Assembly: GCA_903813345.2 (NCBI GenBank)
Contig: CAIIXF020000005.1
Location: 19,287,375 to 19,351,374 of the forward strand
Origin: Owenia fusiformis
Taxonomy: Eukaryota > Annelida > Polychaeta > Sabellida > Oweniidae
Reading direction: 5' to 3'
DNA length: 64,000 nucleotides
Shown here: one piece after another, positions 39,801-42,800 of the stretch
Numbering within the stretch: the first letter of the stretch is position 1
Layout of the letters: the number at the start of each line of letters is the position of its first letter
The notes under the pieces: model-generated
What the model was told of the DNA's origin: nothing
The model's input: only the letters and a program-made list of their open reading frames with translations
Database searches by the model: none
Made by a program: the position numbers and the translations under genes

Positions 39801-42800
39801 TCACAACAGCATGAAAATGGGTGAAAAAAGAGAATAAAATGAAAAATGTATATGAAATAAAACTGCATAATATATTTAGGTTAAATAGTTTTTGAAACAA
39901 TTGAGTCACAGAAAACCATATGCAGAAGACACAAAGGTGAAGTAGGGAAGGAGAACATCTCTTAACTGTCCATACTGGCAGTATAGCAATATATCTCTTT
40001 GGACATTAAAACCAAGAGCTCATAACTTAGATAATTACTGACATGGCAAAATTCATAAAGGCCACAAAAAGGGGATAGGTATTGAAAATGGTATTCACAT
40101 TTCAACAATAAAAGTTAAAACATTATAACAATACTGCATATATCCTTGTGCAAACTGAAATTCAAAAATGCCAAACAAGAGATTAAAGAATAAATTAACA
40201 TGTGGGTCTCTAGGAAGACAAGACAATACAAGATCAAGAATGCATTACAGTTGAAAAAATAACTTTCAGGATTCTCATAACAATTGTTATTTCATCTACC
40301 AGTCTTCATGCTGGACTATACAACAAACACATTTGCAGAAATCTACCTGATATAGATGGCATTATATAACAACTGCATCAACAATCTGATTTCACTTCAC
40401 AAATTCAAATAAGAGAATCCAAAATTAACCTCTTCTCCATATCAATACCAATTGAGGTTAAAATGAAAATAAAAGCAGCATTATAACATAAAAAAATAAA
40501 GCCATTCGCACCATCAAAATAGAATACCAAGAAAATAATAGAGATAAACCACCAACGATATGTATACTTGTTTATCCATGAGCCACCACATGAGAAGGGA
40601 CTGAAGAGCCATGAGACACCAGATAGAAAGAGATTAAATGCAATAATGAAAGGATTGATTGACTACAACAAAGCACATAATGCTGAAGAACAACAGCGCC
40701 AGGCAGGCAGGTAGGTTGTATAGAAGAAGAAGCCAGTCAGCCAATGAGATGTTGTCTCAATGCGTGCATGTCAGACAGCTGGAACATGGACATCAGTGTA
40801 CATACCTACGTAACCAGGCGTGCCACAGGCTGTCGCCATGATACCAGAATCTATTGTTTTTGATAAGCCAAAATCACTTATCATTATTTTTGAATCATCG
40901 GCTGGACTATAGTACAGTAAATTTTCAGGCTGAAATAAAATCAAAAGTGCACGACATGTAAATAATAATAAAGTTAGAAAAGTGCACAATGCCAACCCGC
41001 TTAAACACACCTACGTATCCAGGGGTACCACAAGCAGTTTTCATAATGCCAGATTCCTCAGTTTTTGACAAGCCGAAGTCGCATATCATGACGGAAGAGT
41101 CATCATCCACGGTCCGTAACATTAAATTCTCTGGCTGCAAAGATTCACGTCAAGCTCTAATACAAGCACATCAAGCATGCATATATCAAACACACAGGTG
41201 TACAATACAATCGTCCGAAACTAACCCTCAAAACATTTTATACAGAACTCCATAAGTTGACATGCTAAAATTTCCATTGTTTTCATATATGTTTAAATGT
41301 TACATGGACTTATGTAGGCAGAGTTCTGTATGATTGTTCATCAGGCTAGTTTGATATCTACTGAACCATCGCAAAGTCTTCGAGATACTCAAGTATGTAA
41401 AGGGAACATGTCAATATGTGCCAATACTTTGAAGGAACACTAATCATCATTTGAAACAATCCCCCTCTCTTTCCCACAGTTTGACAAACCAATTTTGGTT
41501 GTCTAGCTAAATAAATTTAGTTCAAGTTCAAGACTCCCTCCCTCACATTCTCTAAACAAATAATGAACAATTCTTCAGTCTATTTTGTTTGCTAATCAAA
41601 TGCAATATATAAAATCAAATGATACTCGAATGACATATTATCTTGAAGAAACTATTGCGAGGTCACAGTGAAATATTGCCAATACTTTGCATTGGCCCAT
41701 TATAGCTGACTGAAATGCAAAATTGCCAATTTAATTAACTTGTAGCAATCAGCGCAATTTATCTACTCTGGCTTTATGGTAGAGGAATGGAAACACTTAT
41801 GTAACTATCCTACATGCCGTCTATTGACCTAAAAAGGAAGTGACTTAATTAACTTATGTCTAGTATATGCTATGGACTTAAGTGTTAGGGGGACCTTGGC
41901 TACCAGGTTAACAGGACCTTGGGTACCAGGTAAATATCACTTTGGGTATCAGGTAACTAAGAAGTGCTACAGATAAGCAACCTCATATCGTACCTACATA
42001 ACCCGGGGTTCCGCATGCAGTTGACATGTCATATGAAGATGACCGTGCTAATCCAAAATCAACAACCATAATCCGGGCATCGTCACTCTCACGTTCGAAC
42101 ATGAGATTCTCTGGCTGAAACACAAGTGACATCTATATACTAGACACTGACTCTAAGCTGCTAAGACCGATATAGACACATGCGATGCTCTGGGGAAGAG
42201 CAAAACACTGCATACCTACGTAACCAGGTGTACCACAAGCAGTGGCCATTATTCCCGAGTCCAAAGTCTTTGATAAACCAAAATCTCCAATCATGATTTT
42301 AGAATCCTCTGCGGGACTGTAGTAGAGCAAATTTTCAGGCTAAAAGAAAGTGCACATGAAAACAATTGAACTAGATAAGAAAGTCAAATAAAATATTGAA
42401 CTAGATTATAAAGATGTGAAAAATCATAAATTATTTTTAAATATTCTAGCATCAAATCTGTTTCTTATAATTTTTCATATTTTAATCTTATCTATATATC
42501 CCTTTAGTATCTGAATACAGGGGGTTTTGAACTCTGTGTTACAACATTCTCTGAAAACTTTGACAAACTGTCTCTTTATATTTGTCAAGTCAGGATTTCA
42601 GTAAAATTTAGCAAGGAGGCACAGCTTCTGAAAATTGAATTTCAACATCAAGAGTAATGAAAATATCTCAACAAAAGTGAAACTGCCTCATGCTTCCTTC
42701 TAATGAAACCCTGTTGTCAATAAGGTGGTTAAGCTACACATTTTTAAGAGAACTTGTACATGAGCATGTAATATTATTTCCCTCGGGAATCACTGTCAGC

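Follow-up and report, generated by a model that had tools for sequence, protein, structure and literature searches.

Differences between kinase isoforms are more often located in tails, linkers or substrate-binding parts. The known splice variants of CaMKII differ in the linker rather than in the catalytic domain, and in JNK the alternative exon pair is located after the activation segment. Tropomyosin provides the type case of exon pairs that exclude each other sterically. The JNK genes (MAPK8/9/10) are described as having a mutually exclusive exon pair in the C-lobe of the kinase domain (PMC8586503). A survey of mutually exclusive exons in human reports clusters of three to ten such exons, four clusters in the CaMK2D gene, encoding CaMKII delta, and names tandem homologous exons, frame-incompatible joining and a branch point near the donor as mechanisms; the steric criterion used there is a donor-to-branch distance of less than 50 bp (PMC5740500). 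For phosphorylase kinase gamma of Drosophila, two mutually exclusive exons are annotated (PMC3228551).

The locus considered here is the 3' part of a CaMKI gene of Owenia fusiformis, located at positions 33822–53243 on the minus strand of the window, that is, of the whole 64,000-nt stretch of DNA that was analysed. One exon of this gene is present in four homologous copies, denoted A, B, C and D, and very probably mutually exclusive use of these copies yields four isoforms of the kinase from this single gene, as judged from the sequence features given below.

The first exon found in the window (53169–53243; here and below all exons are on the minus strand) is constitutive, contains RLKHPNIV...VMEL and agrees with the public Owenia protein P0002. 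The next one, the shared exon upstream of the cassette (43128–42990), ends with HRDLK and has the donor gtgcgt. The shared exon downstream of the cassette, the APEVL exon, is at 36662–36587; both flanking exons match their earlier description. Then follow two constitutive kinase exons (35558–35670 and 35091–35169), a constitutive exon with the start of the autoinhibitory and calmodulin-binding segment (34410–34497) and the last coding exon with the stop codon TAG (33822–33947). The N-terminal exons, encoding the first 76 residues, were sought across the window and not found, and presumably are situated beyond position 64000.

The best solved relatives of the spliced HRDLK–A–APEVL piece are CaMK1, CaMK1G and CaMK1D, followed by CaMK4 and CaMKII. 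Among public proteins outside Owenia, the best matches are named CaMK type 1-like, with an identity of about 72%, a value that also holds for the best molluscan proteins. This bears out the identification of the kinase as CaMKI in the first-pass annotation. P0002 has a Pkinase domain, and a segment of 34 letters from the autoinhibitory and calmodulin-binding region matches the corresponding tail of a CaMK1 protein at 66–68% identity. By its sequence, the kinase with the four-copy exon belongs to CaMKI, and its tail is predicted to bind calmodulin.

Several features of the surrounding DNA deserve mention. Downstream of D, in the intron leading to the APEVL exon, there is a strong inverted repeat (37312–37163, minus strand) with a duplex energy of about −38 kcal/mol, which may be a small mobile element. 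A tandem array at 61734–63738, presumably in an upstream CaMKI intron, has a 50-bp unit in about 40 copies with 95% matches, and probably causes the strong GC skew at the end of the window. Two other arrays, at 19934–20290 (period 137), downstream of the CaMKI gene, and at 59910–60345 (period 135), presumably in an upstream intron, have consensus units that look like mutual reverse complements. An LTR retrotransposon at 10624–19250 on the plus strand has one open frame (12351–17744) encoding zinc knuckles, protease, reverse transcriptase, RNase H and integrase; by these domains we take it to be probably of the Ty3/Gypsy kind. Its direct repeats, 7152 bp apart, are identical over the 300 bp compared, hence the insertion is probably recent. 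Finally, downstream of CaMKI, at 4526–8802 on the minus strand, there are five long open stretches of 239, 116, 121, 204 and 243 amino acids, which may be exons of an adjacent gene; a scan of four of these yielded one weak coiled-coil match below the cut-off.

The four copies are situated at 42216–42339 (A, 124 nt, 42 protein letters), 41994–42114 (B, 121 nt, 41 letters), 41011–41134 (C, 124 nt, 42 letters) and 40806–40929 (D, 124 nt, 42 letters). In each, translation enters at PEN in phase 0 and leaves after GYV in phase 1, between an AG acceptor and a GT donor, so that the coordinates, lengths, splice sites and phases claimed earlier all stand. The intron ahead of A is 650 nt long, and the A–B (42115–42215), B–C and C–D (40930–41010) introns and the intron after D have 101, 859, 81 and 4143 nt, respectively. 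With each copy used as a tblastn query against the window, the other three were found at E of 8.1e-12 or lower, and the next match of each copy had E of 0.43 or above, hence no fifth copy is present in the window. The chance of an open frame in all four copies is about 5e-6, calculated from the base composition of the window alone, with the shared residues uncounted. As tandem homologous internal exons of similar length and the same phase, with AG/GT sites, the copies fit the sequence definition of a mutually exclusive cluster.

The reading frame provides the first restriction. We spliced in silico all 16 ordered subsets of A–D. The normal stop is reached with A, B, C or D alone, that is, in four cases out of 16, whereas all 12 other subsets (no copy, six pairs, four triples and all four copies) yield an early stop, after 89 to 122 residues of the window-encoded part. 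The reason lies in the 3n+1 length of each copy, with which any number of copies other than one brings an early stop; the earlier rule that exactly one copy is needed thus holds in every subset. The same 12 early stops would be expected if the cassette were mainly an on/off control, with the extra copies being poison exons that set the level of CaMKI and one or two copies giving nearly all protein. We consider this unlikely, as a pure poison exon need not keep the kinase sequence, while all four copies keep PEN, DFG, the activation-loop Thr and GTPGYV, and replacements in them are held down (see below).

Mutually exclusive splicing of one copy at a time may have an additional basis for one pair. 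In the C–D intron, the best match to the branch-point consensus is TTCTAAC, whose branch A follows the C donor by 36 nt and precedes the D acceptor by 44 nt; with this branch point, joining of C to D may be sterically blocked, although this depends on which of the predicted branch points is used. Other yUnAy matches are at 41, 51, 69 and 74 nt from the C donor. Those at 69 and 74 nt are merely 11 and 6 nt from the D acceptor, and the one at 51 nt, 29 nt from the D acceptor, just escapes the 50-nt criterion. The scan of the A–B intron for yUnAy yielded no match, so for A and B the exclusion is argued from the frame only. The donors of the copies (gtatgc, gtacga, gtgtgt and gtatgt) never start with gtaag, while four of the six other donors of the gene do; in this small sample, such donors fit regulated use.

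Choice of a copy by docking and selector sequences was assessed by an RNA pairing scan. It covered the introns before A, A–B, B–C and C–D, together with the first and the last 700 nt of the intron after D, and comprised 6570 duplex pairs of 50-nt segments, compared with ten shuffles keeping the base content only. The five strongest duplexes (−39.7 to −32.5 kcal/mol) are local, situated within the intron before A, the B–C intron or the end of the last intron. Next in strength is the pairing of the A–B intron with the end of the B–C intron, which would loop out B (−30.6 and −30.3); these values are within or just below the range of the best-of-shuffle values (−30.4 to −36.8). The tenth and the twenty-fifth observed duplexes (−29.0 and −26.9) are slightly stronger than those in all ten shuffles (−26.6 to −28.4 and −24.8 to −26.3). 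Thus there is a mild general excess over the shuffles, and no segment pairing with a partner near each copy stood out among the introns scanned. We count this result neither for nor against a docking/selector choice.

Comparison of the copies with each other demonstrates constraint at the protein level. Silent and replacement differences were obtained by Nei–Gojobori counts, with Fisher tests on rounded counts. In all six pairs of copies, silent differences amount to 0.75–0.95 per site versus 0.04–0.30 for replacement differences, with p from 7e-6 to 1e-14. For A and D, whose proteins are 93% identical, 21 of 27.5 silent sites differ, versus 4 of 95.5 replacement sites, and the differences are distributed by codon position as 2, 0 and 23, the latter out of 41 third positions. 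Hence silent sites are near saturation and replacement sites are held in every pair. The flanking sequences, compared over 60 nt on each side, resemble each other little (0.28–0.50 identity without gaps, the higher values being upstream, where the flanks of all copies contain pyrimidine tracts). Together with the silent divergence, this indicates that the duplications are old and that only the coding content has been kept.

This pattern bears on three other explanations of the extra copies. The idea that they arose in the assembly, or that they are parts of separate, nested kinase genes, is hardly credible, having nothing in its favour beyond the bare possibility. Duplication in the assembly is rejected on the silent-site divergence, the 23 third-position differences between A and D being far beyond those of allelic or assembly copies, and for nested genes, tblastn with a CaMK1 protein yielded no second kinase exon set in the window. 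That one or two copies are used and the rest are decaying relics of exon duplication is improbable, as at the age implied by the silent saturation the frame, splice sites and motifs should have been lost, whereas they are retained in all four copies, and replacement changes are restrained in each of the six pairs. On the other hand, this explanation agrees with B being the only copy that a public protein record contains, and with the departures from conserved positions in B (10 of 31) and C (5 of 31) described below; however, the most divergent copy, B, is the very one in the public record. As for poison exons, A and D encode nearly the same protein, as expected if they are not kept for protein diversity, and keeping both is unexplained by protein change alone.

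To see which residues are changed, we compared the copies with other CaMKI homologues. The sample consisted of 134 protein records, from the exon B and exon C searches plus the 120 best of 7304 hits of a further protein search; it is not a random one and includes near relatives. Four records were excluded, namely exon A, P0002 and the single-exon fragments P0017 and P0019, which are without HRDLK, leaving 130. For the table of alignment columns one further homologue, with a longer loop, was excluded, leaving 129.

The motifs are retained, as had been claimed in the first-pass annotation. The catalytic Asn (in PEN), DFG and ACGTPGYV are kept in all four copies, as is the activation-loop Thr (human Thr177, the numbering being taken from the alignment), which is also present in all 129 aligned homologues and which we take to be the site phosphorylated by CaMKK. 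The same annotation proposed that the edge of the nucleotide pocket is changed, and this holds at two positions, both of which, as we assume, line the ATP pocket. Immediately before DFG, all 130 other homologues counted have Ser, as do the fragments P0017 and P0019, while A, B, C and D have Gly, Val, Cys and Ser there, respectively. Thus among the copies Ser, which is common to all the other CaMKI homologues counted but is not a formal defining feature, is found in D alone. The second residue after PEN (human Leu148), presumably the one under the adenine ring, is Leu in 129 of 129 homologues and Met in B and C. Among the 31 columns conserved at the level of at least 95%, A departs in two, B in ten (one of these a gap), C in five and D in one, so that D is the copy with the fewest departures from the usual CaMKI sequence. 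At another position A and D have a hydrophobic Leu or Ile where 126 of 129 homologues have Glu. With ten of the 31 conserved columns altered, copy B might encode a weak or altered kinase. Cys before a DFG-type motif is described as a feature of kinases inhibited by hypothemycin (PMC6544269), hence isoform C makes a chemical prediction.

The search with exon B yielded the 347-residue Owenia fusiformis protein P0002, 100% identical over the exon and belonging to a cluster of two member sequences. Its residues 77–347 coincide, letter for letter, with isoform B as spliced (271 residues), in agreement with the boundaries drawn for B and the seven shared exons. According to the Owenia genome paper, which also names the RNA-seq data set ENA PRJEB38497, the gene models draw on RNA-seq assemblies and splice junctions as well as on protein alignments and ab initio prediction (PMC9977687); because these models rely in part on RNA-seq, P0002 is suggestive of transcription of B, although the record is no read count and may not stem from that annotation. 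With exon B alone as a query, only one other protein was found, at 61%, and its segment is nearer to D than to B. The search with exon C alone yielded 16 proteins, at up to 78%, in which the segment is of the ordinary CaMKI type. None of the 130 homologues has a B- or C-like variant; the database is clustered at 90% identity, which hides isoforms differing in this exon only, so that absence elsewhere is weak evidence.

We propose the following scheme of exclusive splicing. The swapped exon would comprise the end of the catalytic loop (PEN), the beta7–beta8 turn, DFG and the activation loop up to GYV. Exclusivity would be enforced first by the frame, since zero or several copies lead in silico to an early stop, and transcripts with early stops would be degraded by nonsense-mediated decay; for the pair C and D, the branch point too near the C donor is probably an additional means. 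We infer that A, C and D are also spliced in and that each of the isoforms is catalytically active. Since the motifs are kept while two pocket positions and the exposed activation loop are changed, the isoforms probably differ in function, likely candidates being binding of nucleotides or inhibitors, DFG dynamics, or the way in which CaMKK and phosphatases recognise them, and they are probably used in different tissues or stages. This suggests that the worm tunes CaMKI by splicing. More tentatively, and with the chances slightly against it, the nucleotide pocket and the activation switch may be exchanged as a unit, giving four catalytic settings chosen by tissue or stage. If true, the settings would concern ATP affinity, DFG dynamics, the response to CaMKK and the sensitivity to inhibitors acting on the Cys before DFG.

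The swapped part is the most conserved switch of the enzyme, and includes a residue identical in all 130 relatives counted. If the copies are used, the residue before DFG has been varied naturally and under selection within a single fixed kinase, which offers a direct test of the role of this residue; moreover, calcium signalling would have been diversified without duplicating the whole gene. Among the matches listed in the open-licence literature, none describes a CaMKI whose activation segment is swapped, and the matches listed for Owenia splicing or for mutually exclusive exons in kinase domains contained nothing on this gene. Thus, while mutually exclusive exons in kinase genes are already known, a CaMKI gene with four swappable activation-segment exons is new in the literature searched.

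One parallel is JNK, where one homologous exon is likewise described as replacing another within the domain of a Ser/Thr kinase (PMC8586503). The JNK exons, however, form a pair in the C-terminal lobe, whereas in Owenia CaMKI there are four copies, and they extend from the end of the catalytic loop through DFG and the activation loop. CaMK2D is similar in being a calmodulin-dependent kinase gene reported to have clusters of mutually exclusive exons (PMC5740500), but represents another CaMK family. The two exons of phosphorylase kinase gamma are given as unlike in length and sequence (PMC3228551), in contrast to the homologous copies of Owenia CaMKI. With general clusters such as those of Dscam, CUX1 and CD55, the Owenia cassette shares tandem homologues, frame-incompatible joining and, in one pair, a branch-point match near the donor; it differs by having no clear docking/selector pairing and by the swapped unit being the catalytic segment of a kinase. 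Finally, CaMKI of molluscs, annelids, nematodes, arthropods and vertebrates has the same activation-loop Thr and the same autoinhibitory and calmodulin-binding tail, but all 130 homologues counted have Ser before DFG, where the Owenia gene offers G, V, C and S.
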